Assembly: GCF_025061645.1 (NCBI RefSeq)
Contig: NZ_JANYMP010000024.1
Location: 1-64,000, forward strand
Direction: 5' to 3'
From: Umezawaea endophytica
Lineage (GTDB): Bacteria > Actinomycetota > Actinomycetes > Mycobacteriales > Pseudonocardiaceae
Length of the DNA stretch: 64,000 nt
Positions 28,632 through 50,466 of the stretch are shown here, piece by piece. Under the pieces are notes generated by a model. The model saw only the letters and a program-made list of their open reading frames with translations. It was not told the DNA's origin and made no database searches. Position 1 is the first letter of the stretch; each line of letters opens with the position of its first letter. Position numbers and translations under genes: made by a program.

Positions 28632-29531
28632 CTACACCTCCAACCGCTTCAGCAGGGCACGGGCGAACCGCGTCGCACCGGTGTCGGTGAAGGGCAGGTT
28701 CAGCGACGGTTCGCAGAGGTCGAGTTCCAGCACCACCGGTCCACCGTCGTCATCGCGGATCAGGTCGACGCGCCCGTACAGCAACGGCCGCTCGATGCCG
28801 AGGTGCGATGCCGCCGCGTCGAGCGCGGCCAACGCGACCTCCTGCTCGTCGGGGTCGGCGACGCGCGCCGCGCGGGTGTCCAGCGTCGGCACGTTCACCG
28901 TGCCGTCCGGCATGAGCATCGCGCTCTTGCGGATGGCGTGGCTGTACTCCTCGTTGAAGAAGGTCAGATCGGTCTCCCCCCGGCGGTCGACCGACTCCAG
29001 GTACGGCTGGAGCATCACCTCGGCGCCGTTGTCGAGCAGCTTGCCCACGTAGCCGACGGCCTCGTCCGCCAGTGACCGCGCGAACCGCTGGACGTCCTTG
29101 GAGTAGGCGCCGATCGTCGGTTTCACGACGATCTCCTTCGCCTCCGGGTGTTCGGCGAGCAACTCGCGCACCGCTTGGGCCCGGTCGGTGTCGCGGTGGA
29201 CGTACCTGGTCGGCACGACCGGAACGCCGCGGGCGGCGAGATCGGCGATGTAGTGCTTGTCCAGCACCCACCGCGCGATCGACACGGGGTTCAGCAGGCG
29301 CGTCGACGCTTCGACCGCCTCGCACCACGCGAGGAAGTCCGGCAGCCGGTCCACGTAGGTCCACGGCGACCGCGGCACCACGACGTCGAACCGCGACCAG
29401 TCGACGGAAGTGTCGTTCCAGTCGCACACCTCCGGTGCGAGGCCCACCTCCCGGCACGCGGCGAGCAGCGGTGGCATGTCGTAGTCGATGGGCAGGCTCA
29501 CCTGGTCGGTCACGAGCGCGACGGTCTTCAC
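28632..29531 (-). CDS. dcsG: ATP-grasp ligase, probable DcsG cyclo-ligase
   Basis: The 299-residue ATP-grasp-type protein has VVPRSPWTYVDRL near residues 50-62, LNPVSIARWVLDKHY (ATP-grasp entry), IVVKPTIGAYSKDV (nucleotide-binding Lys) and a C-terminal VLELDLCEPSLNLPF metal-binding end. In D-cycloserine biosynthesis DcsG closes O-ureido-D-serine to D-cycloserine using ATP. Synteny with five other dcs-like genes makes the assignment strong. The GTG start overlaps the SDR TGA (GTGA). Other ATP-grasp amide ligases are the main alternative if considered alone. Confidence 0.8.
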   Translation of the reverse strand: MKTVALVTDQVSLPIDYDMPPLLAACREVGLAPEVCDWNDTSVDWSRFDVVVPRSPWTYVDRLPDFLAWCEAVEASTRLLNPVSIARWVLDKHYIADLAARGVPVVPTRYVHRDTDRAQAVRELLAEHPEAKEIVVKPTIGAYSKDVQRFARSLADEAVGYVGKLLDNGAEVMLQPYLESVDRRGETDLTFFNEEYSHAIRKSAMLMPDGTVNVPTLDTRAARVADPDEQEVALAALDAAASHLGIERPLLYGRVDLIRDDDGGPVVLELDLCEPSLNLPFTDTGATRFARALLKRLEV

Positions 29532-30274
29532 CAGGGCACCACCTCGTCCATGTGCACGTAGCTGCCGGTCGGTCCGTCCTGGTCGAGCAGGGCCATCCTG
29601 ACGCTGGTACTGGCGCCGACCGGGATCTCGAGGTCACCCTCGCCCTCGTTCATGTCGGTCTTGGTGTAGCCGGGGTGCACCGCGTTCACCTTGATCGGGG
29701 TGTCGCGCAGTTCGTACGCGAGGTGCGCGGTCCACGAGTTCACCCCGCTCTTGGAGGCGCTGTAGGCGGGCAACGACTTGAACGTGTCGCTGTAGGTGTA
29801 CGACGTCGTGTCGCTGTGCCTGGTCAGCGAACCGAGCAGGCTGGAGACGTTGACGACGCGCCCGGCGGGCGACCTGCGGATCAGCGGCAGGAAGGCGATG
29901 GTCGTCTCGACCACGCCGAACAGGTTGGTGTCGAACGTTTCCCTCCACTGCCGGAGCGGCTGCTCCGACGGCTTCTTGCCGTACTCCTCGATCCGGATGG
30001 CCGCGTTGTTGACGAGGATGTCCAGGCTGCCGTGCCTGAGCGTGACGTCCTCGGCGGCGGCCCGGATGCTCTCCGTGCTCGTCACGTCGAGGACGAGCGG
30101 TTCGACGTCGAGGCCCTCGGCGCCCAACGATCGCGCCGCTTCGACGACGGCCTCGTGGTCGCGCCCGGTGAGCAGCACGTGGATCCCGTGACCGGCGAGC
30201 TGGCGCGCGATCTCCAGGCCCATGCCGCGGTTGGCGCCGGTGACGAGTGCTGTTTTCGGTTGGTGTGCGGTCAA
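29528..30274 (-). CDS. SDR oxidoreductase within the dcs operon
   Basis: The 248-residue SDR has TGANRGMG (about 13-20), NNAA (about 89-92), catalytic Ser in VSSLLGS and YSASKSG as the YxxxK motif. It is an NADP-type carbonyl reductase or alcohol dehydrogenase by family. The TTG start at 30274 is supported by GGAGA eight bases upstream. It lies 25 bp after dcsE and overlaps dcsG by 4 nt, so it is firmly in the operon. The established cycloserine route has no redox step that needs it, so it may tailor the peptide product. Confidence 0.8.
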   Translation of the reverse strand: MTAHQPKTALVTGANRGMGLEIARQLAGHGIHVLLTGRDHEAVVEAARSLGAEGLDVEPLVLDVTSTESIRAAAEDVTLRHGSLDILVNNAAIRIEEYGKKPSEQPLRQWRETFDTNLFGVVETTIAFLPLIRRSPAGRVVNVSSLLGSLTRHSDTTSYTYSDTFKSLPAYSASKSGVNSWTAHLAYELRDTPIKVNAVHPGYTKTDMNEGEGDLEIPVGASTSVRMALLDQDGPTGSYVHMDEVVPW

Positions 30275-30299
30275 TTCCGACTCTCCACGTCTTGAGGGG

Positions 30300-31415
30300 T
30301 CACAGCTCGGACAGGAACTTCGACACCGGCGGTCCGAAACGGGCGGTGTCGACCAGGAACGCGTCGTGCCCCTGCTGCGACTCCAGTGCCAGGAACCCGA
30401 CGTCGGCGCCGCCCGCGCTCAGCCCGTCGGCGATCCGACCCTGCTGCCGCAGTGGGAAGAGGAGGTCGGTCTGCACGCCGATCACCAGCGCCTTCTCCAG
30501 GCGCATCGACGCGAAGGCTTCCTCCTCGGTACCGCCGCACGACTCCCCGAGGTCGAACCAGTCCACGCAACGGCTGAGGTAGAGGTAGCTGTTCGGGTCG
30601 AACCGGCGCACGAAGCGGTGGGCGTGGCGGTGGAGGTAGAGCTCCACCTCGAACTCCAGGCCGAACCGCGCGGACCCCGTGGGCGGCTCCGACCGCACCC
30701 GTGACCGTCCGAATCGGACTTCCCACTCCTCCGCCGACCGGTAGGTCATCATGCCCAGCTTGCGCGCCGTGCGCATGCCCTCGTCGGGATAGTTCTCCTC
30801 GTCGTAGCGGCCCTGGTCCCACCGCGGGTCGGACCGGATCGCCTCCCGCTGGAGGGAGCGGACCGCGATGGCGAACGGCAGCGAGTGCACCGCCGCGGAG
30901 ATGTTGATGTGGTTCCGCGTCAGGTCGGGGTGCCGGGCCAGCAGCGCCAGCGCGCTCATGCCGCCCATGGAGGCCCCGACGACGCAGGCGAGGCGCTCGA
31001 ACCCCAACGCGCGCACCGTCCACGCCGCCGCGTCCGCGATGTCCTCGACGGCCAGGTCGGGGAACCCCAGTCGGTAGGGCCCGCCGGTGGCCGGGTCGGA
31101 CGACGGCGGCCCGGTCGACCCCATGCAGCTACCCAGCGAGTTGACGCAGACCACGTGCCAGCGGTTCGTGTCGATCGGTTTGCCCGGCCCCACCATCGCG
31201 TCCCACCAGCCGGGGGTGGGGTCGTCCGGGTGCGCGGCGACGTGCGCGCTGGGCGACAGCCCGGTGAGGATCAGGACGACGTTGTCACGTGCCGGGTTGA
31301 CCTCGCCGAAGGTCTCGTAGGCGATGCGCGCGCCGTGCAGCTCACCGCCGAGTTTCATCGCGAAACCGGCAGGCAGGTCCACGAAACGAGTCGCCGGGGG
31401 AACGAACTCTCCCAC
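30300..31415 (-). CDS. dcsE: MetX-family O-acetyltransferase, probable DcsE
   Basis: The 371-residue alpha/beta-hydrolase-fold protein shows the MetX signature SCMGSTGPPSSDPATGGPY (97-115) and the nucleophile loop GASMGG with Ser149. Asp and His follow in QTDLLFP and QGHDAFL. DcsE is a homoserine-O-acetyltransferase homologue that acetylates L-serine. O-acetylserine then feeds the PLP enzyme encoded next (DcsD). GTG start. A genuine methionine-pathway MetX would look similar; the dcs context decides. Confidence 0.85.
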   Translation of the reverse strand: MGEFVPPATRFVDLPAGFAMKLGGELHGARIAYETFGEVNPARDNVVLILTGLSPSAHVAAHPDDPTPGWWDAMVGPGKPIDTNRWHVVCVNSLGSCMGSTGPPSSDPATGGPYRLGFPDLAVEDIADAAAWTVRALGFERLACVVGASMGGMSALALLARHPDLTRNHINISAAVHSLPFAIAVRSLQREAIRSDPRWDQGRYDEENYPDEGMRTARKLGMMTYRSAEEWEVRFGRSRVRSEPPTGSARFGLEFEVELYLHRHAHRFVRRFDPNSYLYLSRCVDWFDLGESCGGTEEEAFASMRLEKALVIGVQTDLLFPLRQQGRIADGLSAGGADVGFLALESQQGHDAFLVDTARFGPPVSKFLSEL

Positions 31416-31463
31416 GCGTCTACTCCCGTTCTGCGCAGGTCCTCGGTCAGGGCGGGTCTTCGG

Positions 31464-32441
31464 TCAGGCGTCGCGGGGCGCGGGCTCCAGCGAGGCCAAC
31501 CACTCGTCGTCGGAGCCTTCGTTCACCCCGTCGAACAGGTACGTGGACAGGTAGCGCTCACCGGTGTCGGGCAGCATCGAGAGCAGCACGGAGCCTTCCG
31601 GCGCGGTCTCCGCGACGCGCAACGCCGTCGCGAGCGTGGCGCCCGCGGAGATGCCCGCGAAGATCCCCTCCTCGCCCGCGAGACGTCGCGTGGTGTCGCG
31701 CGCCGTCTCCTCGTCGATGGTGTGCAGCTCGTCGATGACGGTCCGGTCCAGCAGGCTCGGCACGAAGTTGGGGGCCAAGCCCTGGATCTTGTGGACGTTC
31801 CACTCCTTGCCCGCCAGCACCGCGGCGTTGTCGGGCTCGGTGGCGATGACGCGCACCTCGGGTCGCGCGAGCTTCAGCATCTGGCCGACGCCGGTGAGCG
31901 TGCCGGTGGTGCCGAAGCCGGTGACGAAGTAGTCGAGCCGCTTCCCGGCGAAGTCGGCCAGGATCTCCGACGCGGTGGTCTCGCGGTGGTAGGCGGGGTT
32001 CGCCTGGTTGTCGAACTGGTTGGCGCGGAACCAGCCGTGCTTCTCCGCGAGTTCGTCCGCCCTGCGGTTCCCGCCCGCGCTGCCCTCCGCACCGGGGAAG
32101 AGGATGACCTTGCCGCCGTAGGCGCGGATCAGCTTGCGCCGCTCCACCGAGTACGTGTCGCCCATCAACGCCACGAACTGGTAGCCGCGCGCCGCGGCGA
32201 CCATCGCCAGCGCGATGCCGACGTTGCCGGAGGTGCACTCCGCGATCGTGTCGCCGGGCTTGAGCAGCCCCTTCCTCTCCGCGTCGAGGATGACGGCGAG
32301 CGCGAGCCGGTCCTTGACCGAACCGCCGGGGTTGAACGACTCCACCTTCACGTAGACGGTGACGTGGTCGGGTGCGAGCCGGTGGAGCTTGACGATGGGC
32401 GTGCGGCCGATCGTGTCGAGGATGCTGTCATACAGCGGCAT
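31464..32441 (-). CDS. dcsD: O-ureidoserine synthase, probable DcsD
   Basis: The 325-residue cysteine-synthase-type PLP enzyme has the PLP lysine Lys43 in NPGGSVKDR, substrate loop TSGNVG (70-75) and phosphate loop [10 protein letters not shown] (175-184). Cysteine synthases usually have TSGNTG and GTGGT, so both loops are shifted, consistent with a different nucleophile. DcsD couples O-acetyl-L-serine with hydroxyurea to give O-ureido-L-serine and can also make cysteine. It overlaps dcsC by 14 nt, and dcsE follows after 48 bp. Confidence 0.88.
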
Positions 32442-33270
32442 GGGAGAACTGCCCTTCGAAGGAGAACGTGGCTGGGCCTGCGAGGAGGATGGGAGCGGCG
32501 GCGTCCGGCCACTCGATGCGGAGTTCTCCGCCGGGCAGGGAGACGGCGATGTCGCGCTCGACCCGCCCCTGCCTCATCAGCACCGCGGCTGCGGCACAGG
32601 CACCGCTGCCGCAGGCCAGGGTCTCGCCCGCGCCGTACTCGAAGACGCGCAGGCGAACGCGTTGGGGTGAAACGACTTCGACGAAACCGACGTTGACCGT
32701 CGGCAGGAAGAGGCCCGATCCTTGCAGTGCTGGTCCGACCTCGGCGACGGGCGCGGTGTCGACGTCGCCGACCTCGATCACGGCGTGCGGGTTGCCGACC
32801 GACGCGGCGGCGAAGCGCACTCGCGCCCCACCCACCTCGGTCTCGTACAGGTCCTGCTCGTCGTCGAGGCCGAACAGCGGAACCCGGTCCGGCGCGAACT
32901 GCGGCACCCCCAGTGCCACGCGGAAGGCACCTCCGTCCAGCACGTCCACCTCGTGCGTGCCCGACGGGCTGTCGAGCGAGAACCGGGGGCCCCGTGCCAA
33001 ACCGGCGCGGACGACCCAGGCGGCGACACAACGGGCCCCGTTGCCGCACTGCGGAGAAGGGTCGCCGTCCGCGGTCCAGATCTCGTAGGAGGCAACGGCT
33101 TCCTCGGTGCGCGGTGCCTTGACGCCGAGGACCAGGTCGCAGCCGACGCCGAAGTGCCGGTCCGCCAGGGCGCGGCACAGCTCCGGCGAGGGGTCCTTCG
33201 CGTCGCGCAGGTCGAGCACGACGAAGTCGTTGCCCGCACCGTGCATCTTGGTGAACGGCAGGACGTTCAT
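32428..33270 (-). CDS. dcsC: O-ureidoserine racemase, probable DcsC (DapF-like)
   Basis: The 280-residue protein is of the diaminopimelate-epimerase fold. It keeps both catalytic cysteines: Cys75 in QCGNGARC and Cys220 in [11 protein letters not shown]. DcsC is the DapF-like, PLP-independent racemase that converts O-ureido-L-serine to the D form. The ATG at 33270 overlaps the dcsB stop (ATGA). An ordinary DapF for lysine and cell-wall synthesis is possible in isolation, but that gene is not expected inside this operon. Confidence 0.88.
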
Positions 33271-34085
33271 CGATGGCCTGCCGAGGCCTCGAACACGGGT
33301 CCGAGCATGCCGAGGATCGTGGCGACCCCCTCGGCGCTGCTCTTCTCGTCGACCGGCGCGTTGAACTCCGCGACCTCGACGCCGACGAGCCTGCCGGGCG
33401 GGATGGCCTCGAAGATCGCCCGGATCTGGGCGGGTGACATGCCGTTCGGGACCACGTAGTCGGCGGGCAGGAACTGCGGGTCGAGCACGTCCCAGTCGAT
33501 GTGCACCCACACCGGCGATCCGCCGACGGCCTTCATGACGTTCTCCGCGGTCGCCTCCGCGGGCGGGATGACCCGGACGCCCGCCCCGTCCAGCAGCTCG
33601 CGCTCGGCCGGGTCGATGTCCCGCGTCCCGACCAGCACGGCCTGCTCCGGTCGAAGCCCGGCCCCGTGCCCGCTGTCCCACAGCCCGCAGGCGGCCGACA
33701 GCACCATGCCGCCGAGGTATCCCGAACTCGTCTCAGGTGTGTTGAAATCGCCGTGCGCGTCGATGTACAGCACCACCGCGTCCGGGTGCTCCCGAGCCAC
33801 GACGGGCAACGTGGCCAGGCTCGCGGAACAGGTGTTGGCGACCATCACCGGTGTATTCCCGGCTTCGAAGGCGGCTGTCACCGCCTGCTGGAGTCCCACC
33901 AGTGTCTTTTCCGCTTGAGCGAGGCTGACGGTCCAGTCGTCCACGACCGCGGGCGCGGGTTCTCCGATAAATTCACCTTTGATCCCGTAGCGGTCTTCCA
34001 ACGCCCGAGCGGTGCGAGCCGCACCCTCGATCATTCGCGCCGCCCGGTCGGCCACCCGCCCCTGGGAGACAATAAGATCAATCAT
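33267..34085 (-). CDS. dcsB: Arginase-like NG-hydroxyarginine hydrolase, probable DcsB
   Basis: The 272-residue arginase-fold protein has metal motifs IDAHGDFN (Asp109, His111, Asp113) and HIDWDVLDP (Asp197, Asp199). Where arginases have GGDHS, it has NTCSAS with Cys86, the replacement reported for DcsB. DcsB cleaves N-omega-hydroxy-L-arginine to hydroxyurea and ornithine. The start at 34085 is chosen because GGAG stands nine bases upstream and it gives Cys86; the frame also allows a GTG at 34124 next to the dcsA stop. Confidence 0.88.
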
Positions 34086-34124
34086 CGAACGGAACTCCGT
34101 ATCTGTTTCGCCGACAAAAAGCAC

Positions 34125-34883
34125 TCACGCACCAGGAAAAGCAAATGGACACTTGTCCGCCCGATCGGCATTTTCCTCGACCAATCCGTACTGCTGCCAT
34201 TCGAGCGCGCCGCCGTGATATGACCCCAGTTGCCACGAGTGCGGCGTGCCGTCGTAACGCTCGATGCGATTGCGGATGTTCGTCCGAACCCGCCGCCCGC
34301 TGGGAGTATCGCCGGCGAAGACGTCGAACCGCTCGCGCGGGTTGACGATCAGCTTGAAATACTCGCCAAGATTTCGACTACGTCGAACGCGATGCGCGAA
34401 ACTGCTCATGTTGAAGAACAACGGCATACCGTCGAAGCACATGGACCAGGCCTCGGAATCGGGGTCCCTGCCGACCCCTTCCGGCCACGGCGCCGGGTCG
34501 ACCTCGTGCAGAGCCGCGAGCACCCGCCAGCCGAACGCGTGGTAGTCGTCGACGGTCCGAACCTTCACGGCGTCCAGCGAGAACGCCACTACCAGCGGAC
34601 TTGCCGTGTCCAGACGGCCGTCCCACTGCCGGGACAGCTCGACGTACTCCGTCAGGCCCTCCGCCAGGTGGCGGACACCGTCACTCCCGGCGTCCTCGAC
34701 GAAGATGAACTTGACGATCTTCTTCCGGAAGGCGTTCTTCGAGAAAACACACGGGAAATCAGGGTCGACAAGTCTGGACTCGACCTCGTCGAAAGCAACA
34801 CGATGCCATCCTCTCGCGTCATCGATGCACGTCTGGGAGATCAGCTTGGTGTTCTCGTCTGACTTGACCACAGGGATGTCCAT
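34125..34883 (-). CDS. dcsA: Haem-dependent arginine N-hydroxylase, probable DcsA
   Basis: The 252-residue protein belongs to the YqcI/YcgG-type family. Visible features are FPCVFSKNAFRKK near residue 43, a PWPEGVGRDPDSEAWSMCFD stretch, FFNMSSFAHRVRRSRN and a C-terminal KCPFAF. DcsA is a haem protein that oxidises L-arginine to N-omega-hydroxy-L-arginine, the first step towards hydroxyurea. The DNA is visibly more AT-rich than its neighbours. It is first in the operon, with only a weak ribosome-binding site. The family call rests on pattern recognition and gene order. Confidence 0.82.
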   Translation of the reverse strand: MDIPVVKSDENTKLISQTCIDDARGWHRVAFDEVESRLVDPDFPCVFSKNAFRKKIVKFIFVEDAGSDGVRHLAEGLTEYVELSRQWDGRLDTASPLVVAFSLDAVKVRTVDDYHAFGWRVLAALHEVDPAPWPEGVGRDPDSEAWSMCFDGMPLFFNMSSFAHRVRRSRNLGEYFKLIVNPRERFDVFAGDTPSGRRVRTNIRNRIERYDGTPHSWQLGSYHGGALEWQQYGLVEENADRADKCPFAFPGA

Positions 34884-35285
34884 CCATCAACAAGTGCAAG
34901 CTTGATTCGATCTGCCACGACCTTCGGTGCGCACGTCGGTAAATCTGCGATCATCAAGAATAGGAATGGCAAAAAGTGAGAGGCAATCACCACCGGAACG
35001 GTGCGAAAACACTACACCCAGGCACACAGGAGTCCGGCGTCAAGTATAGAAGGAATCAGAATACGGGCCTTTTTTCACCCCATGAGAAGCCCCCCGAGCA
35101 TCGACGCTACCGAAGTTACTTCCTTTTACCATCAGGTGTCAACCAGATTACATGTGGCGCAGATCACTATTGACCATTTAACAGTATTCATAGGAAATTC
35201 CCTTTCGCAGAGAATTCAGATATGCACGAGGGCATACCACTCGGACATACCCCGAAAGAGTGGAACCCGAATGCACTATCTCCTG
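34884..35285. other. AT-rich 402-bp intergenic region upstream of dcsA
   Basis: No convincing gene is present. The sequence is markedly poorer in G and C than the rest of the window. It contains the CAAGCTTG palindrome just upstream of dcsA and several short AT runs. It separates the NRPS/MFS operon from the dcs operon on the same strand, and most likely holds the dcsA promoter and the end of the MFS transcript. I could not fix -35/-10 boxes or a terminator. Confidence 0.5.
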
Positions 35286-36473
35286 CTAGACCGTCGAGCG
35301 GTCCCGTCCGGGCGACTTGTCCGCACCCGTTCGCGCGGCCGCGAACAAGAAGATCAACGAACACCACACGCCCACCGCGCCGACCACGCACAAGACCGTG
35401 GTGCTGTACCCGTCGATCACCCGTGCGCCGACGAGCCCGCCGAGCGCGGCGCCGAGGAACACCGACGACGAGTTGAGCGACACGACCAGCGTCCCGGCCG
35501 ACGGGTAGACGGAGAGTAGTCGCTTGAGCTGGGTCGGCACGATGGTCCAGCCGACCACACCCCAGGCGAACAGCACGACCAGCGTCGCCACGAGTCCGGA
35601 CGCGACCGGCAGGACCAGGAGCAGCAGGCCGACCGTCGTGACGGTGGTGGCCAACAGCGGACGCCAGCGGAACCGGTCCGACAGCACCCCGCCCGCGATG
35701 GTCCCGATCAGCGTGCCGACACCGAGAACGGTGAGCATCAGCATCAGGACTTCCGTGCCCGCGCCTACGTTGTCCCGCACCACGAGCGCGAGGTAGGAGT
35801 ACACGACGTACTCCCCCGCCACCGCGAGCAACGTCAGCGCGAGCACGACGAGCAGACCCGGTTGGCCCAGCAGGCGCAGCCTTTCCCGGATCGGCACCGG
35901 CTGGGTCCTCGGGTCAGCCAGCCCGCCGCGGCCTTGCAGCAGCGCGGCGACGACCCCCATCACCGCGATGGCCACGAGCACCCAGCGCCACCCCACGAGC
36001 GAGGAGACCAGGACACCGAGCGGAACACCGATCACCGTCGCCGCCGTGACTCCCGACAGGACCAGCGAGACCGCCCGTCCGCTGCGCGCGCTCGGCACGG
36101 AGGCGCCCGCGGTGGCGGTGGCGTTCGGCAGGTAGGCGCACGCGCCGATCGCGGCGATCAGCCTGCCCGCGACGAGCATCGCGACCGAGCCGGACATCGC
36201 GACCAGGTTCCCGGCGGAGAACAGCAGCAGGCCCGCCATACCGATCCGGCGTTGCGACTGCCCGGCCACCAGACTGGCGACGATCGGGGCACCGATGGCG
36301 AACACCAGCGGGAACACCGCCAGCGCCTGTCCCACGGTGCTCGGATCCGTACCGAGGTCGGAGCTGACCGCCAGCAGGATGCCGGACAGCACGGAAGCGT
36401 CGACGCCGATGGCGAACGCGCCCACGACGAGTGGGGTGAGCCGCCAGAGCGAGACCTCGGCCGGAGCGTTCAT
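35286..36473 (-). CDS. MFS exporter of the NRPS operon
   Basis: The 395-residue MFS protein has about twelve hydrophobic segments. It shows the AraJ/sugar-efflux type front (PLVVGAFAIGVDASVLSGIL) and a loop 2-3 motif degraded to AGQSQRRIGM. It probably exports the peptide product or an intermediate. The ATG at 36473 lies 23 bp after the free A domain gene, with GAGGAGAGG about 13 bases upstream. It is the last gene of the NRPS operon, before the AT-rich gap. Confidence 0.85.
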   Translation of the reverse strand: MNAPAEVSLWRLTPLVVGAFAIGVDASVLSGILLAVSSDLGTDPSTVGQALAVFPLVFAIGAPIVASLVAGQSQRRIGMAGLLLFSAGNLVAMSGSVAMLVAGRLIAAIGACAYLPNATATAGASVPSARSGRAVSLVLSGVTAATVIGVPLGVLVSSLVGWRWVLVAIAVMGVVAALLQGRGGLADPRTQPVPIRERLRLLGQPGLLVVLALTLLAVAGEYVVYSYLALVVRDNVGAGTEVLMLMLTVLGVGTLIGTIAGGVLSDRFRWRPLLATTVTTVGLLLLVLPVASGLVATLVVLFAWGVVGWTIVPTQLKRLLSVYPSAGTLVVSLNSSSVFLGAALGGLVGARVIDGYSTTVLCVVGAVGVWCSLIFLFAAARTGADKSPGRDRSTV

Positions 36474-36496
36474 GGTGCGGTAGTCGCCTCTCCTCG

Positions 36497-38002
36497 TCAG
36501 TGGACTGTCGGGTTGGGAGTCGGGAGCGACCTGCGGTCGATCTTCCCATTGCTCTTCAGCGGCAGGCTCGGCAGCTCGACGAACCACGTCGGGTTCATGT
36601 ACGGCGGCAGGACGCGCCGCAGGTGCTCGCGCACCGCGGCGACCGTGCCCCCGTTGTCGAACACGACGTATCCGGTCAGCCACTTCTCGCCGGTCGGATC
36701 GGTGTGCGTGAGGCAGCACGCCTGGCGGACACCGGGCGTCTCCAGCAGTGCCATCTCGACGGCGTCCAGCTCCACGCGGAACCCGCGGATCTTCACCTGG
36801 TTGTCGAAGCGGCCGAGAAACTCCAGCACCCCGTCCGGTCGCCTGCGCACGGTGTCGCCCGTGCGGTACACCCGCGCGCCCTGCGCCAGCGGGTCCGGCA
36901 GGAAGCGCTCGACCGTGAGGTGGTGGTCGGTGTACCCGCGGGCGAGTCCGGCGCCACCGATGAACAACTCCCCCACCTCCCCGTCCGGCACCGGACGCAG
37001 GTCTCCGTCGAGGACGCGGACGTACGCGCCGGGGATCGGCCGTCCGATGGGGATCTGCCCCTCGGTGTCGGCCTCGGTGATCTCCTGGTGGATCGTCGTG
37101 AACGTGGTGGCCTCGGTCGGGCCGTAGCAGTTCGAGACCGTGGTGCCGGGCAGGCTCCGGAGCGCCGCGCGCACGTGCGGCGGCGACAGGACGTCTCCCC
37201 CGGTCATCAGCCTGGTGACCCCCGCGAGCCCGTCGACGGCGTCGTCCACCACGACGTTGAACAGCCCCTTGGTCAGGTGCAGCACGCTGATCCGGTGGCG
37301 CGCGACGAGATCGGCGATGCGGTACGGGTCGAGCAGACCCGGTGGCGGCACCACCAGCGTGCCGCCGTTGCAGAGAGCGCCCCAGATCTCGAACGTGGCC
37401 GCGTCGAACGTCGGTGGCGCTATCGCGCAGTAGGTCTGCCCGACACCCGTGGGCGCGAAGCCACCGCTGACGAGGTTGACGATCGAGCGGTGTTCGATCC
37501 GCACGCCCTTGGGCTGTCCGGTCGAACCCGAGGTGTACATGACGTACGCGAGGTGGTCGCCGCGCAACCTCGGCGCGGGCGCGATCCCGTCCGCCGAGTG
37601 GTCGCCGTCCAGCAGCACCACTTCGACGTCCGACCCCCTCAGCAACTCCGCGTCCGCACGGCTCGCGACCACCACCCGGCAGCCGCTGTCGGCGATCACG
37701 TGGTCGCGGTGCGCGGCGGGGTCGTCCGGGCTCAGCGGCACGTACGCCGCCCCCGCCCGCATGACCCCGAGCAGGCCGACGACCAGGTCTGCGCTCATCT
37801 TCCCGCACAGGCCGACCGAGTCCGCCTCGCGGACACCGCGTCGCACCAACGAGTTCGCCAGCCGCGCCGCCCTGTCCACCAGCGCGCCGTAGGAGACGGA
37901 ACCGCCTTGCCACACCAACGCGGTGCGCCACGCCCCCGCGACGGCGTGCCGGGCCACGAGGTCGCTGATCGTCGCCGCACCGCTCCTCGTCGCCACTACC
38001 AC
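36497..38002 (-). CDS. Stand-alone NRPS adenylation domain
   Basis: The 501-residue A domain has no carrier. Core motifs: MYTSGSTGQPKG, NCYGPTEATT, VYRTGDTVRR, and the catalytic lysine in LKSNGKIDRR. My manual pocket reading is D-A-F-H-M-G-C-T-F-K; the Asp marks an alpha-amino acid, but I do not recognise the full code. Three carrier domains in the two upstream NRPS proteins lack their own A domain, so this enzyme probably loads them in trans. Its GTG overlaps the preceding NRPS stop (GTGGTAG). O-ureidoserine or cycloserine are interesting candidate substrates, unproven. Confidence 0.85.
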   Translation of the reverse strand: MVVATRSGAATISDLVARHAVAGAWRTALVWQGGSVSYGALVDRAARLANSLVRRGVREADSVGLCGKMSADLVVGLLGVMRAGAAYVPLSPDDPAAHRDHVIADSGCRVVVASRADAELLRGSDVEVVLLDGDHSADGIAPAPRLRGDHLAYVMYTSGSTGQPKGVRIEHRSIVNLVSGGFAPTGVGQTYCAIAPPTFDAATFEIWGALCNGGTLVVPPPGLLDPYRIADLVARHRISVLHLTKGLFNVVVDDAVDGLAGVTRLMTGGDVLSPPHVRAALRSLPGTTVSNCYGPTEATTFTTIHQEITEADTEGQIPIGRPIPGAYVRVLDGDLRPVPDGEVGELFIGGAGLARGYTDHHLTVERFLPDPLAQGARVYRTGDTVRRRPDGVLEFLGRFDNQVKIRGFRVELDAVEMALLETPGVRQACCLTHTDPTGEKWLTGYVVFDNGGTVAAVREHLRRVLPPYMNPTWFVELPSLPLKSNGKIDRRSLPTPNPTVH

Positions 38003-41000
38003 GGGGTGTCCTCCGGATCATCCACAAGGCGGGTCAGCGCGGCGGTGTACAGCGCGGCGACGCCGTGGACGTCGAGCGGTGCGCCCGCGCCGAGTTGAAG
38101 TGCCAGCACGACGTCGCGGTCATCGCGGAAGTGCGCCACCACCGGGTGCGGGAACAGGTCGCGACCGGGGAGGAAGCGCACACCGGCGCGGTCCTCCTCG
38201 GTCGCCGCGTGGCGGAAGCGCACGTAGTTGAACAGGGCGGCGAACGGGTCGGCCAGCCCCAAAGCCCTTTGCACGTCGGGGAACTGGCAGCCGAGGTGCG
38301 GGAACACCGCCGCCTCGGCGACCTGCGCCGCCCGCACCAGCTCCCGCCAGCTCCGCTGCTCGCCGCGCAGCACCAGCGGAACCGGGTTGAGGAAGTTGCC
38401 GACCGCGTCGTCCGGCACGTCCTCGTCCCTGCTGTGCAGGAGCAGACCTGTCACCACGCGCCCCGCGTCGCCGCGGCACGGCGTCGCGAGGGGTGTGGCG
38501 GTCACGACGCTGATGTGCGCGGCGAGCAGCAGCAGGCGCAGCGACACGTTGAGCTGCCCGGCCCGGTCCCGCAGCCGTCCGACGACCTCGTCTGGCAACG
38601 GGTGTTCGAGCACGGTGTGCCCACTACCACCGACGTGCAGGCGGTGCGGCCTGGCGGTGTGCAGCTCGGCGCGCCAGAACGGCAGCGCGTCGGCGAGTGT
38701 CCGCTCCGGACGCGTCCGGCCGGTGAAGGCGGGGAAGACCGGATCCTCGGTCGGCGGGGCCGTCACGACTCCGTTCAACTCGTCGCGGTAGCGCGTCAGG
38801 ACCTGCGCGACCAGGGAGGCGAGCGACATCCCGTCGATGACCGCGTGGTGGATCACCACCCCGAGCCTGGTCTCGCGATCGGACATCCGGGTCAGGCTCC
38901 ACCGCACGAGACCGGGCTCGTCGACCGCGAACCCCGTGAGCTGTTCCGCCGCGAGCCAGTCCTCGTGACGCCGCACCGCCTCCGGCTCGGGCAGGGCCGA
39001 GAGGTCGGCCTCGGTGAACCTCAGCGGCGCGCTGTCGTGCACCTGGTACGTCCAACCGCCGAGGTCGTCGCGGTGGAAGGAGGTGCGCAGGGCAGGGTGG
39101 AGTGCGATGACCTGCGCGAGCGCGGTCCGCATGGCCCCGACGTCGAACGGCAGGTCGACCGCGTAGCCCGCCGACACCAGGAAGACGCCGGTGTCGGGAT
39201 TGGCCGTCGCCTGGTCCAGCATGTACCGCTGGGTCCCCGTCGGCGGCGACGGCTCGTCGCTCGCAGAAGTTCCGAACGCCTCGGGAGCGGAGGTCATGGC
39301 GGCGGCCAGGTCGGCGAGCCTCGGTGCGCTGTACAACACCTGGAGAGACACCGGATGCCCGGCGGCGGCGAGTCGCGACTTCACCTTGAGCAGGCTGATC
39401 GAATCGCCGCCCAGCGTGAAGAAGTCGTCCTCGGCGTCGACGTCCTCCGCGCCGAGCACGTCTCGCCACACCGCGGTGACCGTGTCCGCGATCGTCGTGC
39501 CCGGTACCGGCTCGGGGGCGAACAGCTCGTCGACGCGGTCACCGAGCCGGTCCGGCAGGCTCCGCAGCGTCGAGACGAGATCGGCGGCGATCCCCTCGAC
39601 GACGTGCTCGTCGTAGAGGTCGCGGGCGAACTCGACCACGCCGCGCAACGCGCCGTCGTCCACGCGCGCCCGCACGCCGAGGTCGAACTGCACACTTCCG
39701 GTGTCCACGTCGAGCCAGCGCAGTGCCAGGTCGTGCATCTCGTGCGCGGACGGCAGCATCTCGTGCAGCGACACCAGGACCTGGAACAACGGGTTGGTCG
39801 CCGACGACCGGCTGTCCGGCGACGCGTCGACGATGCGGTCGAACCCGGCGTGGGCGTGCGTGAGCGCTCCGACCACCGACGATCCGACCTCGTCGACGAG
39901 GTCCGCGACCCGCAGCCCCGGTGCGACGTCGACGGGGAACGGCACGGTGTCGACCATGAGCCCGACCAGCGGCTCGAACTCCGTCTCCGGGCGGTCCGCG
40001 ACCGGTGTGCCGAGCGCGAACCGCGTGGTGCCCGTCCGCGCCGCGAGCACGATCGCCACCGCCGACCCGAGCACCACGAACAGCGTCGTGCCGCGCTCGT
40101 CGGCCAACCCGCGCAACCGTTCGACGTCCTGCTCCCCGAGTTCGAAGGCGACCTTGCCGCCGTCGAACGACGGCACCGCCGGACGGGGCCGTCGACCGGG
40201 CAGGGCGAGGTCGACCACGACACCGCGCAGCACGTCACGCCAGTACCCGGTGACCTCCTCGGGCAGTGCGGCCGCCCGGTCCCACTGGTGCTGCGCGTAG
40301 TCCACGTAACGACTGGCCAGCACGGGCAACGACGGAGGCCGTCCACTCGCTCCCGCTTCGTAGAGCTCGACCAGTTCGTCGAGCATCACCTTCATCGACC
40401 ACTCGTCGGACACCATGTGGTGCAGGCACAACTGCACGACCGTGCGCGTCGGTTCGAGCGGGTAGCACACGACCCGCAGCAGCGGACCGGTGCGCAGGTC
40501 CAGCGGCCTGCGTGCTTCCTCGGTCAGCGCCTTCGGCAGCCCCGCCGGGTCGACGTGGCGCACTTCCCGCGGCACGGTCACGTCCTCGTGCACCACCACG
40601 TGCGGGATGCCGTCGATGTCGGTGAACGTGCTGCGCAGCGCGTCGTGCCTGCGGGTCAGCGTGGAAATCGCTTCCCACAGGACGGTGTCGTCGAGCGGTC
40701 CGCTGATCTCGACCGCGACGGACGCCGCGTAGGCCGTGCCGCCGGGGAACAACTGGTCGAGGAACCACAACCGCAGTTGCGCGGGCGAGACCCGGTAGAC
40801 CGACGAGCCGTTCGGCTCCGAGCGCACCGCTGCCGCTCGGATCCGGGTGGTGGACGGCGATCCGCCGTCCACGAGTTCGGCGATCCGCTTCGCGCAGTCC
40901 GCCAGCCGGGACGCCTGGAAGACGACCTCGACGGGCAGCGTGACGCCGAAGGCCCCGCGCACCCCCGAAACGATGCGCATCGCCAGCAGCGACTGCCCGC

Positions 41001-42465: not shown

Positions 42466-42518
42466 CTCGCCACCTCCCGGTGCAGGGAGTCGTTGCGCAG
42501 CACGAGATACCCGTTCAC
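42462..42518 (-). other. 18-codon mini-ORF, possible MbtH remnant
   Basis: A GTG overlaps the stop of the first NRPS gene (GTGA), and its TGA overlaps the GTG start of the second (GTGA). It encodes VNGYLVLRNDSLHREVAR. The stretch NGYLVLRND resembles the conserved beginning of MbtH proteins (NG-aromatic-x-VL-x-ND). It ends before the SxxxWP motif, so it cannot be a working MbtH. It may be a decayed mbtH or simply a translational-coupling peptide. Confidence 0.4.
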
Positions 42519-45500
42519 AGGTGGCCCCCAGGTTCTCCGTCGGCGGTGGACAACTGCCGCATCAGCTCGTCCAGGTCGGTCTGGTCCAGACCGGCGAGCG
42601 GGAAGTCGGCCACCTGCGCGGCCACCGGCTCCTCCGTCTCCCACGTCGCCAAATGCGCGACGAGGTCGTCCAGCAGCGCGCGCAACGTCACCTCGTGGTG
42701 CAGCCCTTCGCTGTAGAAAGCTCGCAGCCGCAAGCGGTTGCCCACCACCAGCGCGACGATCTCCACCTCGTGCGACCGCGGCCGGTTCGGGCCTCGGTCA
42801 CCGCCGTGGTCGAACTCCACGGCCACCAGCGGATCGGGCAGCGCGTCGTCGAACCGACCGAGGTAGTTCACCAGCACGTCCGGCAGGTCCACTTCGGACT
42901 CGCGGCGCAGGCGCAGGTAGGCCCGGACGTCCTCGCGCGACGTCCGCAGCGCGCTCTCGACCACGCGGGCGCGGGCCAGCGGATCACCGGACTCGACCAC
43001 GACCGGGACCGGTGCGGCCAGGCAGCCGACCGCGTCCGCGAGCACGACGTCGGATCGCCCGCCGGTCATCACGTCGACGACCGCGGCGTCCTTTCCGGAG
43101 CGGGCTCGCAGGACGTCGCCGATCGACACCAGCAGGAGGTGCAGGGGGTTGAGCCGCGCGCTCCGGGCGCGCTCGACCAGCCGTCCGGTGGTGTCCGTGT
43201 CGAGCACGTGCTCGACCACCCGTTCCCCCGCTCTGTCGTTCACACCACCCGGCAGGTCCGGGACCAGCGAACGAGCACCCCTCGCGAGCACGGCCGCCCA
43301 GTCGGCCCCTGGTGCGCCGTCGTCACCGGCGAGCGCCGAGATCGGCACACCGGGGTCGAGTCGCGCGTCCCCGAACGCCAGTGCGCCCGCGTAGGCCTCG
43401 ACCAGGTCGGCGAGCACCACCTGGAGCGACGCGGCGTCGGCGACGGCGTGGTGCGCGACGAGGACCAGCCGTGGGTGGTCGCCGTCGTGCAGGCCGATGC
43501 GCACGACTCGTCCCGTCGCGAGTTCGAGTGACCGGTGCAGCGTCTCCAGCCAGGCACCGAAATCCTGGTCCTCGCCGTGGGAGAGGACGTCGTCGACGGC
43601 GACGGGCCGCACGGTCTGCGACCACGTGTGGGCGTCGATCGAGGTGTGCAGGGACTCGTGCCGCTCCAACACCGCGGCGACCGCCTTGCCCAGTGCCGTC
43701 CGGTCCAGCGGTGCGCTCAACCGGAGCACCAACGAGACGTTGTCCCAGTCGCGGTCCTCCTGACCGGACAGCACGGACGACTGCTCCGGCGAGACCGGCA
43801 CGGGCCCGTCGGTGGACCGGCTTGACCGCGTGGCGTCGGCGACACGTCCGACGTGCTCCGCGAGCAGGCGCACGGTCGGGTTCTCGAAGAGGTCCTTCGG
43901 GCGGACGCGGTGTCCGAGCACTCGAAGCCGGGCGCACACCTGGATGCTGAGGATCGAGTCGCCCCCGAGGTCGAAGAAGTCGTCGTGGACCTCGACGCCG
44001 TCGACGTCGAGGACCGACTCCCACACGTCGAGCAGTTCGCGTTCCAGCGCGCTGGTCGCACCGGCCTCCTGCCGGTCACCGCGCACCGCCACCCGCGTGC
44101 CCGCCTCGATCGCCTCGGCGGATCCCGTCTCGTCCGCGCCCAGACCGGTCCACGCGCCGCACCGCGCGTGCGGCGCGCTCGTCATCGCCAGCAACGCGTC
44201 GACCACGTCGTGCGCGAAGTTCAGCGCCTGCTGCTCGTCGAGCTGATCGGTGTTGTAGTTCGCGACGATCGCGAGGTCGCCGGTGAGCGGGTGCACGCGG
44301 GCGTTGACGGTGAGCGGGAAGTGGAACGGGTCGGTGAAGCGGCCGTCGAGGTAGACGAGGTCGGAACGGCCGGTGATGCGCTGGTAGACGTGGAAGTGGA
44401 TGTAGTTGAACGCCGTCTCGAACAGCGGCTTTCCCTGGTGGCCGCGCTGGAGCGCCGCCACCGGGTGACGGCGGTGTTCGAAGACCTCCGCTTCCCTGGC
44501 GAAGACGGCACGGGCGAGATCGGTCCACGCCCCGTCCACCCGGACGCGGAACGGCACGGTGTTGAGGAACTGGCCGAGCACGTGTTCGGCGTCGACCAGC
44601 TCGGGCCTGCCCCCGCTGACCAGGCCGGTGAGGACGTCGCTGGTCCCGCCGTGCTTGGCGAGCGCCGCCACGTACGCCGTGAGCAGCACGGCCTTCGTGG
44701 TGACGCCGATATCGCCCGCGAGGGACTTCACCGCGTCGAACAGCTCGGTCCGCACGGGGACCGGCAGGTCGATGCTGCGGGGCGCGCCGTCCTCGACGCG
44801 ATCGCGACGCGGCAACCGCAGGAACACCGCGTCCTTGAGCTGCTCCATCCAGAAGTGCCGTGAGCCGGCGTCGCCCAGCGCGGCCTGCTCCTCCGCCACG
44901 AAGTCGCGGTACCGCGTCCGCAGGACACCGCGTGCGGGCGCAGTGCCCGCTACCCGCGCGAGGTAGGTGTCGAACAGCTCGGTCAGGAACGTCGCCGCGC
45001 TCCACCCGTCGAAGATGGAGTCGTGGAACGACACGACGAGATCGATGACGTCCTCGGCGTGGCGCAGCACGACGACGCGCAGCAACGGGGGCGCGGTGAG
45101 GTCGAACGGCTTCACCTGCTCGGTGTCGAACACCTCCCGCGCCCGGCGCCGCCGCTCATCCTCCGGGAGCGCCCGCAGGTCTTCCACCGGCACCGGCAGC
45201 GACGCCGACCGCTGCACGTACTGGAACGCGCCGTCCACACCGCCCACCTCGAACCGGGTGCGCAGGATGTCGTGCCGCCCCACCACCACGTCGACGCACT
45301 CCTGGAACAGCTCGCGGTCGAACGCGATCCGCAGGTGCAGGCTGAACGTCACCTGGTACACGGCGACGTCCGGCGAGTACTCGGAGTGGAAGATCATGCC
45401 CGCTTGCAGCGAGGAGAGCGGGTAGGCGTCGACCACGTCGTCCGGCAGGACCGCGGGCCGGGGCAGGTCGACGGGGGTGCGCGACCGCACCTCGGCCGAC

Positions 45501-48500
45501 GGCCGGACTTTCCGCGCCATCACCGCGAGGTGCTGCGCCTTGAACATGTCCTGCACATCGATGTCGTGGCCGCGGTCGCGCAGCAGGGCGCGCACCCTGA
45601 TGGACTGCAACGAGTCGCCGCCGCGTTCGAAGAAGTTGTCGTCCGCGTCGAAGGACTCCGCGTCCGCGCCCAGCACCTCGGCCCACACCTCGCGCAGCAC
45701 CAGCGCGGTGCTGTCCAACGCCGCGGCGGCCCGCTGCCCACGCCGCCGCGCCTCCGGCCGGGGTAACGCCTTGCGGTCCAGCTTCCCGTTGCCGCTCAAC
45801 GGCATCACGGCGAGCTGTACGAGGTGCGCCGGGACCATGTACTCGGGCAATCGCTCGGTCAAGTGGCCGCGCAGGTGCTCGACCTCCACGGCCCGGTCGG
45901 CGACGAAGTAACCGACCAGCTTGGGGCTGGGACCGACGTCCTCGCGCAGCACGACCACGGCCTCGGTCACCGCGGCGTGCTCCAGCAGCCCCACCTCGAT
46001 CTCCCCGAGTTCGATCCGCAGGCCGCGCAGCTTCACCTGGTGGTCGAGCCTGCCGAGGAACTCCAGGTAGCCGTCCGGGTGCCAGCGGGCGAGGTCGCCG
46101 GTGCGGTACAGGCGACCGTCCACGGTGCAGGCGAAGGGATCCGCCACGAACCGCTCGGCGGTCAGGTCCGGTCGTCCGAGGTAGCCCCGCGCCAGTCCGA
46201 CGCCGCCCAGGTGCAGTTCGCCCGGCGTGCCGATGGGTGCCAGCCCGCCGGTGCTGTCGAGCACGTAGGTCTTCGTGTTCGCGATGGGCCTGCCGATCGG
46301 GACCACCGGGGCCGTGTCGTCGTCGCGGCACGTCCAGTGGGTCACGTCGACGGACGCCTCGGTAGGCCCGTACAGGTTGTGCACCTCGGCGGTGTTCACC
46401 GTGCGGAACCTGCCGACCAGAGCCGACGGCAGTGCCTCACCGCTGCACACCACCCGCCGCAGCGACGAGCAGCGCGACACCGAAGGCTCGTCGACGAAGG
46501 CCGCCAGCATCGACGGGACGAAGTGGACCGTGGTGACGCCCTCGGCGGTGATGACCTCGCTGAGGTACTCGGGGTCCTTGTGCCCGTCCGGCCTGGCCAT
46601 CACCAGCCTGGCGCCGTACATCAACGGCCAGAAGAACTCCCACACCGAGACGTCGAACGTGTACGGCGTCTTCTGCAACACCACGTCGTCGGCGCCGAGC
46701 CGGTAGCGCTCCTGCATCCACACCAGCCGGTTGACGATGCCTCGGTGCGGGACGGCGACCCCCTTGGGCCTGCCTGTCGAACCCGACGTGTAGATGACGT
46801 AGGCCAGGTCGAGCTCGTTCGGCGGGTCGGCCCGCCCGCCGCGGTCGCCCGTGGAACCGGACCCGGTGAGCGGGAGCACGAGTTGACCGGGGACGGCCGC
46901 CCTCAACGCGGCGATCCGGTCGTCGTCCGCGAGCAGCACGCGCGGCCGTGCCTCCTCGACGATGGCGGCGATCCGGCGCGCCGGGTGTTCGACGTCCAGC
47001 GGCAGGTACGCGCCATCGGCGAGGAGGATGCCCAGCAACGCGACCACGAGTTTCGTCGACCGTTGCGCACAAACACCGACAACGATGTCAGGACCGACGC
47101 CGTGGGACCTGAGTTCACCGGCCAACGAACGCGAGCGCTCGACCAGTCGGGCGTAGGTGAGTTCGCCGTGCTCGTCGCGCACCGCGACGGCATCGGGCGT
47201 GCGACGCGCCTGGTCCAGGACGAAATCCCCGAGCCGACGCGTACCGGGCTCCTCGCCGACCACGTTCGTGAACTCGAACAACGCGGCGCGCTCCGCGGCC
47301 GGGACGACGTCGAGCCGGTGCACCGGCAGGTCCGGGTTGGCCAGCACCGACTCGATGAGCGTGTGCAGGCGCTGCCCGATGGCCTCCGCCCACTCCGGCC
47401 CATAGCAGGAGGTGCGGTACTCCAACCACCCGTCCAGGCCTTGGCCGCGCACGACTTCCAGGTGCAGCGCCAGGTCGTACTGCGCGGCGCCGGTGTCGAT
47501 CCGGCCGAGCAGCTCGGTGTCCAGACCGGCCATCCTCGGGGCGGGCATCGGCGAGCCGAGCAGGTTGAGCATCACCTGGCACAGCGGCTGCTGCCCGGCG
47601 TCGCGCGCCGCGCCGGTGTGCTCGAGGATCCGGTTGAACGGCACGTGCTGGTGGCGTTTGGCCTCCTCCACGACCCCCTGCACGTGCGCGAGGTGCGTGC
47701 GGAACGTCGTCGTCCCGGTGAACGCGGCGCGCATCGGGACGGTGTTCGCGAGCATGCCGACCAGGTGTCGGGCCCCGTGCTCGCCCCGGTTGGCCATCGG
47801 TGTGGCGATCACGACGTCGTCCTGCGCGGACAGTCGCGCGACCAGCAACTGGGTGACCGCGACCAGGAAGCTGTAGGGGCCGGCGCCGACGGACTTCGCG
47901 AGGGCCTTCGCAGCGGTGAACGTCTGCCGCGACACCGTGAACGGGATGCGAGCGCCCGCGCTCCGGCGGCCGTGCAACGGCACCGTGGCGCCGGGGACGC
48001 GGGACTCCAGCGGTGCGCCGCGCAGGTGCTCGCGCCAGAAGTCGGCGGAGCTACCGCCCCGCGCGTCGAGCGACTCCGCTTCCAGCACGGCGTGGTCCCT
48101 CGGTCCGACCAGCGGCTTCGGACCGTCGATCCGACCGTCCCGGTAGGACGCTTCCAGGTCGCGGATGAAGATCCGGGCGGACCAGCCGTCCGCCACGAGG
48201 TGGTGCAGGGTGACCGACAGGACGTGGTCGTCGGGCGCGACGCGCAGCAACGTCAGCCGGACGACCTGCTCGGTGATGTCGAACGGCGTCGCGGCGAGGC
48301 CGCGCAGCTCGCGATCCAGCACGGACGTGTCGGCCGGGTCCAGCTCGACCGTCCGCAGGTCCACCGGCGCGCTCGGGCGGACCTCCTGGTACGGGACGCC
48401 CGCCGTGGCGTGGAAGGTGGTGCGCAGCGCTTCGTGCCGTGCGACGACGTCGTCGAGCGCACCGCGCAGCCGGGCCACGTCCAGAGGCCCGCGCACGCGC

Positions 48501-48649
48501 AGCGCGACCGACAGGTTGTACGCCACCGCGGTCGGATCGACCTGGGTCAAGAACCACAGTCGTTGCTGCGCGCCGGACAGCGGCCCGGTCGGGTCCGGCC
48601 AGTCACGCGCGATCAGCCCGGAAGATTCACCTGATTGGTCGTCATTCAC
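42515..48649 (-). CDS. NRPS, domain order C-A-T-C-T-E, Ser-activating
   Basis: About 2044 residues from the GTG at 48649 (GGGGGG upstream); an upstream TTG would add 25. Order: C (HHLVADG, about 149-155), A (YTSGSTGRPKG, catalytic GNGKLDRK), carrier (GGDSLQS), C with FHDSIFDG (first His replaced by Phe), carrier (GGDSILS), and an epimerisation-like domain (HHAVADA, then NYLGRF and a YSEGLHH end). The A-domain pocket reads D-V-W-H-V-S-L-V-D-K, which matches the known serine code. The second module has no A domain. The E domain has Ala where Gly is usual, so epimerase activity is uncertain. Confidence 0.92.
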   Translation of the reverse strand: MNDDQSGESSGLIARDWPDPTGPLSGAQQRLWFLTQVDPTAVAYNLSVALRVRGPLDVARLRGALDDVVARHEALRTTFHATAGVPYQEVRPSAPVDLRTVELDPADTSVLDRELRGLAATPFDITEQVVRLTLLRVAPDDHVLSVTLHHLVADGWSARIFIRDLEASYRDGRIDGPKPLVGPRDHAVLEAESLDARGGSSADFWREHLRGAPLESRVPGATVPLHGRRSAGARIPFTVSRQTFTAAKALAKSVGAGPYSFLVAVTQLLVARLSAQDDVVIATPMANRGEHGARHLVGMLANTVPMRAAFTGTTTFRTHLAHVQGVVEEAKRHQHVPFNRILEHTGAARDAGQQPLCQVMLNLLGSPMPAPRMAGLDTELLGRIDTGAAQYDLALHLEVVRGQGLDGWLEYRTSCYGPEWAEAIGQRLHTLIESVLANPDLPVHRLDVVPAAERAALFEFTNVVGEEPGTRRLGDFVLDQARRTPDAVAVRDEHGELTYARLVERSRSLAGELRSHGVGPDIVVGVCAQRSTKLVVALLGILLADGAYLPLDVEHPARRIAAIVEEARPRVLLADDDRIAALRAAVPGQLVLPLTGSGSTGDRGGRADPPNELDLAYVIYTSGSTGRPKGVAVPHRGIVNRLVWMQERYRLGADDVVLQKTPYTFDVSVWEFFWPLMYGARLVMARPDGHKDPEYLSEVITAEGVTTVHFVPSMLAAFVDEPSVSRCSSLRRVVCSGEALPSALVGRFRTVNTAEVHNLYGPTEASVDVTHWTCRDDDTAPVVPIGRPIANTKTYVLDSTGGLAPIGTPGELHLGGVGLARGYLGRPDLTAERFVADPFACTVDGRLYRTGDLARWHPDGYLEFLGRLDHQVKLRGLRIELGEIEVGLLEHAAVTEAVVVLREDVGPSPKLVGYFVADRAVEVEHLRGHLTERLPEYMVPAHLVQLAVMPLSGNGKLDRKALPRPEARRRGQRAAAALDSTALVLREVWAEVLGADAESFDADDNFFERGGDSLQSIRVRALLRDRGHDIDVQDMFKAQHLAVMARKVRPSAEVRSRTPVDLPRPAVLPDDVVDAYPLSSLQAGMIFHSEYSPDVAVYQVTFSLHLRIAFDRELFQECVDVVVGRHDILRTRFEVGGVDGAFQYVQRSASLPVPVEDLRALPEDERRRRAREVFDTEQVKPFDLTAPPLLRVVVLRHAEDVIDLVVSFHDSIFDGWSAATFLTELFDTYLARVAGTAPARGVLRTRYRDFVAEEQAALGDAGSRHFWMEQLKDAVFLRLPRRDRVEDGAPRSIDLPVPVRTELFDAVKSLAGDIGVTTKAVLLTAYVAALAKHGGTSDVLTGLVSGGRPELVDAEHVLGQFLNTVPFRVRVDGAWTDLARAVFAREAEVFEHRRHPVAALQRGHQGKPLFETAFNYIHFHVYQRITGRSDLVYLDGRFTDPFHFPLTVNARVHPLTGDLAIVANYNTDQLDEQQALNFAHDVVDALLAMTSAPHARCGAWTGLGADETGSAEAIEAGTRVAVRGDRQEAGATSALERELLDVWESVLDVDGVEVHDDFFDLGGDSILSIQVCARLRVLGHRVRPKDLFENPTVRLLAEHVGRVADATRSSRSTDGPVPVSPEQSSVLSGQEDRDWDNVSLVLRLSAPLDRTALGKAVAAVLERHESLHTSIDAHTWSQTVRPVAVDDVLSHGEDQDFGAWLETLHRSLELATGRVVRIGLHDGDHPRLVLVAHHAVADAASLQVVLADLVEAYAGALAFGDARLDPGVPISALAGDDGAPGADWAAVLARGARSLVPDLPGGVNDRAGERVVEHVLDTDTTGRLVERARSARLNPLHLLLVSIGDVLRARSGKDAAVVDVMTGGRSDVVLADAVGCLAAPVPVVVESGDPLARARVVESALRTSREDVRAYLRLRRESEVDLPDVLVNYLGRFDDALPDPLVAVEFDHGGDRGPNRPRSHEVEIVALVVGNRLRLRAFYSEGLHHEVTLRALLDDLVAHLATWETEEPVAAQVADFPLAGLDQTDLDELMRQLSTADGEPGGHL

Positions 48650-50460: not shown

Positions 50461-50466
50461 ATCCCC

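Follow-up and report, generated by a model that had tools for sequence, protein, structure and literature searches.

The closest described system is the dcs cluster of Streptomyces lavendulae, for which the gene order and the roles of dcsF to dcsJ are known. Nonribosomal peptide synthetase (NRPS) lines with trans-acting adenylation (A) domains and a terminal condensation (C) domain for release are known from capreomycin and viomycin biosynthesis and from the rhabdopeptides. A stretch of 64,000 nucleotides from Umezawaea endophytica (contig NZ_JANYMP010000024.1, positions 1 to 64,000; the window) harbours genes resembling both. Seven consecutive genes in this window are strongly supported by their sequences as a complete D-cycloserine gene set, orthologous to the known pathway, and it is very likely that the strain makes D-cycloserine. 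An NRPS operon lies upstream on the same strand, and how the two are related is the subject of this analysis.

The seven genes follow each other in the order dcsA, dcsB, dcsC, dcsD, dcsE, a short-chain dehydrogenase/reductase (SDR) gene and dcsG, on the minus strand from 34883 down to 28632 (Table 1). The proteins were compared with solved chains, the best relatives being identified by molecule name, and with Pfam and NCBIfam profiles. A preliminary description, made from the sequence alone, had listed the same seven genes in this order, and all seven are indeed present as it stated. DcsG matched a single solved chain, 6jil, named 'Cycloserine biosynthesis protein DcsG'. DcsB, DcsC, DcsD and DcsE are by sequence nearer to solved pathway enzymes than to their primary-metabolism relatives. 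The chain closest to DcsE, 3vvl, was deposited under the name homoserine O-acetyltransferase and is taken here to be DcsE of the cycloserine pathway; the solved Dcs chains that were matched presumably all come from S. lavendulae. Alignment of the window DcsC to the O-ureido-serine racemase 7vdy (278 residues) showed that both Cys motifs are kept, and the genome's own diaminopimelate epimerase (DapF), encoded elsewhere (contig C2), is 36% identical to it. No solved DcsA was found among the matches of the window DcsA to solved chains, of which AglA scored highest (89 bits). Clustering with primary metabolism, the outcome that would have spoken against the assignment, was thus not seen where a structure of the pathway enzyme exists. 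A chance or primary-metabolism origin of the Dcs matches was considered and rejected on the equivalog cut-off and the solved-enzyme scores.

Table 1 Features of the D-cycloserine and NRPS region of the window
Feature	Position	Strand	Evidence and remarks
EamA exporter (predicted)	26278..27270	-	PF00892 76 bits; true start probably near 27190
MocR-type regulator (GntR + aminotransferase), between dcsG and EamA	27200..28624	+	start approximate, open reading frame (ORF) listed from 26798
dcsG, D-cycloserine synthetase (ATP-grasp)	28632..29531	-	NF058666 492 bits, NCBIfam equivalog cut-off 360; 6jil 416 bits
SDR (adh_short)	29528..30274	-	169 bits; in 12/12 dcs loci, 69-78% identity to window
dcsE, L-serine O-acetyltransferase (MetX-like)	30300..31415	-	3vvl 591 bits, next kind 237
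dcsD, O-ureido-L-serine synthase	31464..32441	-	3x43 590 bits, against 308 for cysteine synthase as the next kind
dcsC, O-ureidoserine racemase	32428..33270	-	7vdy 470 bits; DapF 230
dcsB, N(omega)-hydroxy-L-arginine amidinohydrolase	33267..34124	-	6lug 419 bits; next kind, arginase, 85; start by homology near 34085
dcsA, YqcI/YcgG N-oxygenase (predicted heme enzyme)	34125..34883	-	PF08892 191 bits
Leader of dcs operon, 402 bp	34884..35285	-	no called gene; between MFS stop (35286) and dcsA (34883)
MFS exporter of NRPS operon	35286..36473	-	MFS_1 131 bits; Cmx/CmrA-like 161 bits (cut-off of 400 not reached)
Free adenylation domain	36497..38002	-	pocket code, as read by eye: D A F H M G C T F K
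NRPS2, C3-T3-C4-T4-C5	37996..42465	-	3 Condensation + 2 PP-binding; no A, no thioesterase
NRPS1, C1-A1(Ser)-T1-C2-T2-E-like	42515..48724	-	profile matches, motifs; ORF end 48724
Amidase-signature hydrolase	49001..50413	+	PF01425 320 bits; divergent from NRPS1, membership uncertain
Alanine-aminotransferase-like enzyme	50467..51678	+	two congeners lack a close copy; may or may not belong to the cluster

Eleven other dcs loci were compared with the window: one in Roseateles (L034), one in Streptomyces sp. A1136 (L035) and those of genomes G180 (loci L040-L041), G538, G556, G658, G703, G543 and G732 (together L056-L067), G1168 and G1202. DcsG above the equivalog cut-off is rare, being found in two of 394 genomes of the class (the window's own and G180). 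Matches at E <= 1e-60 were present in six of 394 genomes of a family, f21, and a DcsC search of 392 genomes of a genus, g28, yielded two (G1168 and G1202). We infer that f21 is Streptomycetaceae and g28 probably Streptomyces, since the Streptomyces sp. A1136 locus nests among their loci. A DcsG pattern scan of species genomes, which reaches close relatives only, gave six loci, two of which (L034 and L035) carry other dcs genes. The order A-B-(C)-D-E-SDR-G is conserved in all eleven, and DcsA is 59-70% identical to the protein in the same place in each. Among 72,556 plasmid records, DcsG matched in seven (six below 60% identity, one at 64% over 17% of the query) and DcsC in 113, all below 60% identity.

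The S. lavendulae cluster and the window are alike in the order of DcsA to DcsE, SDR and DcsG, in the presence of an EamA exporter, and in that DcsB, DcsC, DcsD, DcsE and DcsG of the window are closest to the solved enzymes. The window differs in lacking a D-Ala-D-Ala ligase gene beside dcsG, where a MocR-type regulator is found instead, and in having an NRPS operon 402 bp upstream; G1168 does carry a D-Ala-D-Ala ligase gene next to dcsG. The SDR occupies what we take to be the position of dcsF. The described D-cycloserine pathway uses only DcsABCDEG (PMC10214352), yet all twelve loci, Roseateles included, have the SDR between dcsE and dcsG, and 116 of its 248 aligned columns are invariant.

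The dcs locus extends beyond dcsG to the EamA gene, which the preliminary description had overlooked together with the MocR-type regulator. A relative of the EamA protein, 77-84% identical, is encoded in nine of the eleven other dcs loci, none of which has the window NRPS in the flanks examined. It lies directly after dcsG in seven; in G1168 it follows the D-Ala-D-Ala ligase gene, and in G538 it is found upstream of dcsA. G180 gave a 40% match only and L034 no match at E <= 1e-30. The protein is taken to be a DcsJ-type exporter. It is possible that the MocR-type regulator is a sensor of D-cycloserine or D-alanine; a 79% identical relative is encoded upstream of dcsA in G538.

The simplest account of the region is that two neighbouring operons make two products, free D-cycloserine and a separate peptide, and we rate it slightly better than even. 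Two separate products are favoured by the completeness of the dcs part, which stands on its own in the window just as it does at other loci. DcsA would hydroxylate L-arginine and DcsB would free hydroxyurea, while DcsE would form O-acetyl-L-serine; DcsD would couple the two to O-ureido-L-serine, which DcsC would racemise and DcsG would close to the D-cycloserine ring, the free product being exported by the EamA protein. The NRPS operon, with its serine module, trans-acting A domain and MFS exporter, would make a short peptide of its own. The identity of the enzymes can be read from their sequences, whereas what each operon makes, and that the two act independently, are conclusions drawn from it.

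Reasons that favour two operons are the orthology of the pathway, the 402-bp gap with a promoter-like site seen by eye and the dcs operon's own EamA exporter. The preliminary description placed the dcs genes directly downstream of two NRPS genes, a free A domain and an exporter; these do lie upstream on the same strand, but the gap intervenes before dcsA, and the NRPS1 ORF runs on to 48724, past the 48649 at which that description ended. In this leader TTGACA (35142-35137) is followed after 18 nt by TAACTT (35118-35113), as seen by eye, and in a by-eye look for a shared regulatory motif TTGACA/TTGACT-like sites were noted upstream of dcsA in the window, G538, G1202 and G180. A promoter and terminator scan, however, reported no promoter in the gap, and its two terminator-like sites both lie inside the MFS gene. 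The two exporters belong to different families, EamA and MFS, one per operon, which also speaks for two operons. Upstream of dcsA the flanks examined extend about 14-18 kb in the G genomes; those of L034 and L035 are shorter, at about 5 kb. Within them none of the eleven other dcs loci encodes the condensation parts of the window NRPS or its MFS protein. The conserved dcs-NRPS adjacency that had been proposed as a check was found in none of them, nor through searches with NRPS2. Within these flanks the dcs block occurs without the NRPS in all eleven, which is the first half of the second outcome that the preliminary description had named as refuting its reading. The flanks of L034 carry two other MFS genes. 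Among the papers listed in a literature search with little coverage of subscription journals, none reported a cycloserine-containing NRPS product or a dcs-NRPS locus.

In NRPS1 the pocket code of A1, read by eye as D V W H V S L V D K, is of the serine type. The best solved relatives of A1 include Txo2, Txo1 and EntF, while linear gramicidin synthase and 8xjz, each matched over two domains, score higher; the EntF and Txo modules concerned presumably activate serine. C2 has HDSIFDG in place of HHxxxDG. The epimerase-like (E-like) domain keeps HHxxxD and NYLG and carries DVMTGGRSD at the place of the epimerase motif EGHGRE, because of which it may not epimerise. Three of the four carrier (T) domains, T2 to T4, are without an A domain in cis, and the pocket of the free A domain appears by eye to be valine-like with changes. 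In having fewer A than T domains, a free A protein, a terminal C domain and no thioesterase seen, the window resembles the capreomycin/viomycin and rhabdopeptide lines; it differs from them in that no orthologous synthetase was found for its NRPS.

The architecture of NRPS2 suggests a way in which the two operons could work together. C5, the final domain, retains HHAVIDG and is followed by neither a carrier nor a thioesterase, and could release the chain onto the alpha-amine of free D-cycloserine, giving a short serine-containing peptide with a D-cycloserine cap. That the two operons share a strand and fall in a single stretch, unmatched in two congeners in the parts searched, would agree with this, and the amidase encoded beside NRPS1 could trim or free the capped peptide. 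What speaks for the cap is adjacency, the shared strand, the terminal C domain and the lack of a thioesterase among the ORFs scanned. Against it stand the missing NRPS in the examined flanks of the other dcs loci, the exporter and leader that the dcs operon retains, and the weak sequence evidence for an acceptor of C5, whose best solved relatives, McyA and AmbE, both score below 70 bits. Release of this kind is a possibility that we rate below its simpler rival, at somewhat under one in three. The preliminary description had proposed a peptide containing D-cycloserine or O-ureido-D-serine; the D-cycloserine assignment in that proposal is strongly supported, whereas the peptide step is suggested by adjacency and not proven.

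A version of the other half of that proposal, in which the shared building block is O-ureidoserine and the free A domain loads O-ureido-serine onto T2-T4, appears improbable. The three carriers without an A domain in cis would accommodate it. Furthermore, the free A code, which looks like the valine type, has His at the 278 position, as in serine-type pockets (read by eye, against known codes). However, the intact DcsG would consume O-ureido-D-serine, and the code, a reading uncalibrated for O-ureido-serine, also fits a plain aliphatic residue.

Several observations weigh against the account of two independent operons. The dcs and NRPS operons lie on the same strand and in the same order with no called gene between them, and the 402-bp gap yielded no promoter in the scan, which requires the second hexamer to match at four positions. 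No thioesterase was found in 31 ORFs scanned with Pfam, which are part of the ORFs of the window. The NRPS would thus depend on a partner for release, a role that an amine such as D-cycloserine could fill. The flanks of some other dcs loci are not free of related proteins: about 5.7 kb past dcsG, G658 encodes one with 33% identity to A1-T1, and weaker adenylate-forming enzymes occur in the flanks of G538, G732, G1168 and G1202; all these matches are confined to A or A-T parts. Independence is moreover not checkable from the NRPS side, as NRPS2 is without a full-length relative in the genomes searched. Searches with NRPS2 scored two candidates per genome, so that relatives could be missed, and the order and family sets overlap. 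They returned at E <= 1e-150 one of 298 genomes of the order, itself only, and at E <= 1e-110 two of 230 genomes of the family, itself and a 34% partial match. By sequence there is thus no full-length relative in the 297 other order and 229 other family genomes, and among the plasmid matches listed identity was 28-31%. Finally, both operons fall within 26273-57681, and in the parts searched congener DNA at 89-91% is found only outside it.

The congeners G394 and G395 have no DcsG above the cut-off and no NRPS2 match at E <= 1e-110. On one side three abutting pieces of the window (21260-22206, 22208-24281 and 24279-26272) are 89% identical to DNA of G394, and on the other 57682-63136 matches G395 at 91%. 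In G394, a one-contig genome, the counterparts of the three pieces lie at three separate places. The scattering of these pieces beside dcs reflects either repeated rearrangement or an assembly join. The DNA search between the flanks covered 26273-28000 and 44001-57681 and gave weaker matches only: the adenylation region of the NRPS matched at 65-75%, and 55941-56750 at 70%. Both operons therefore lie in one stretch that seems to have no counterpart in the two congeners; joint arrival would fit this but is not proven by it.

The alanine-aminotransferase-like protein is 62-64% identical to copies in three f21 genomes and at most 35% identical to proteins of the two congeners. G1168 has one of its two close copies of this gene upstream of dcsA (59%). 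The gene was considered as a sign of NRPS insertion into a dcs cluster and was rejected as such: G538 and G1202 each have two close copies that lie apart from dcs, and it is these that the window protein resembles more (62-64%). It is conceivable that the gene is a spare copy countering cycloserine inhibition. A 902-aa ORF at 51785-54493 could not be clearly assigned to a family. Scanning the window for tRNA genes and Rfam families gave no match.

Beyond the dcs loci, DcsG-like ATP-grasp proteins at E <= 0.001 occur in 185 of 394 class genomes, only two of which exceed the cut-off; one such protein below the cut-off is encoded in this genome too (L002, G000:C18). DcsG relatives of 44-48% identity were found in Lysobacter, Rhodanobacter, a Lysobacterales metagenome-assembled genome (MAG) and a proteobacterial MAG (L036-L039), with no other dcs genes in the examined flanks, bar a generic SDR in L039. 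Lactivicin is a Lysobacter antibiotic with a cycloserine ring, and is a possible lead for these relatives.

The dcs loci differ in the racemase gene. The gene dcsC is absent from all nine loci reached via DcsG (L034, L035, G180, G538, G556, G658, G703, G543 and G732). The gap between the dcsB and dcsD matches agrees with this: it measures 55-303 bases in those nine, as against 829-895 where dcsC is present (the window, G1168 and G1202). The nine genomes contain DapF-like proteins only, 32-43% identical to the window DcsC. As G1168 and G1202 were found by the DcsC search itself, the presence of the racemase in two of eleven is not a frequency. Loci without DcsC resemble the window in having A-B-D-E-SDR-G in the same order, at 58-86% identity, and differ in that their block has no racemase gene; they may make L-cycloserine or employ another racemase. 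A tree of six concatenated proteins places the window, at 69, beside a pair formed by G1168 and G1202, which itself groups at 100.

This variation among dcs-like blocks, nine of the eleven others being without DcsC, could be taken to mean that the window block is a relict or makes a product other than D-cycloserine. Private departures from otherwise invariant positions in the six Dcs proteins number 3-7 per protein in the window and 0-17 in the other loci, which speaks for the account of a working D-cycloserine operon; on the side of a relict, the window is alone the highest of the twelve only in DcsB (7, next 6), and in DcsG it is tied highest (7). However, the window genes, dcsC included, are open throughout and tightly spaced, and DcsC has its two Cys motifs, which makes a relict or a different product very improbable.

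If the release onto D-cycloserine were nevertheless real, at the rather low probability that we give it, the last condensation domain would form a natural peptide-D-cycloserine conjugate, with the drug in a carrier form to be opened by peptidases, and the locus would lend itself readily to testing how a condensation domain releases a chain onto an antibiotic. The finding that many dcs loci are without a racemase makes it a direct question which enantiomer of cycloserine is made. To these loci the window adds a complete racemase-bearing pathway, in a genome of another taxonomic order than the two further racemase-bearing loci found, which are probably from Streptomyces.

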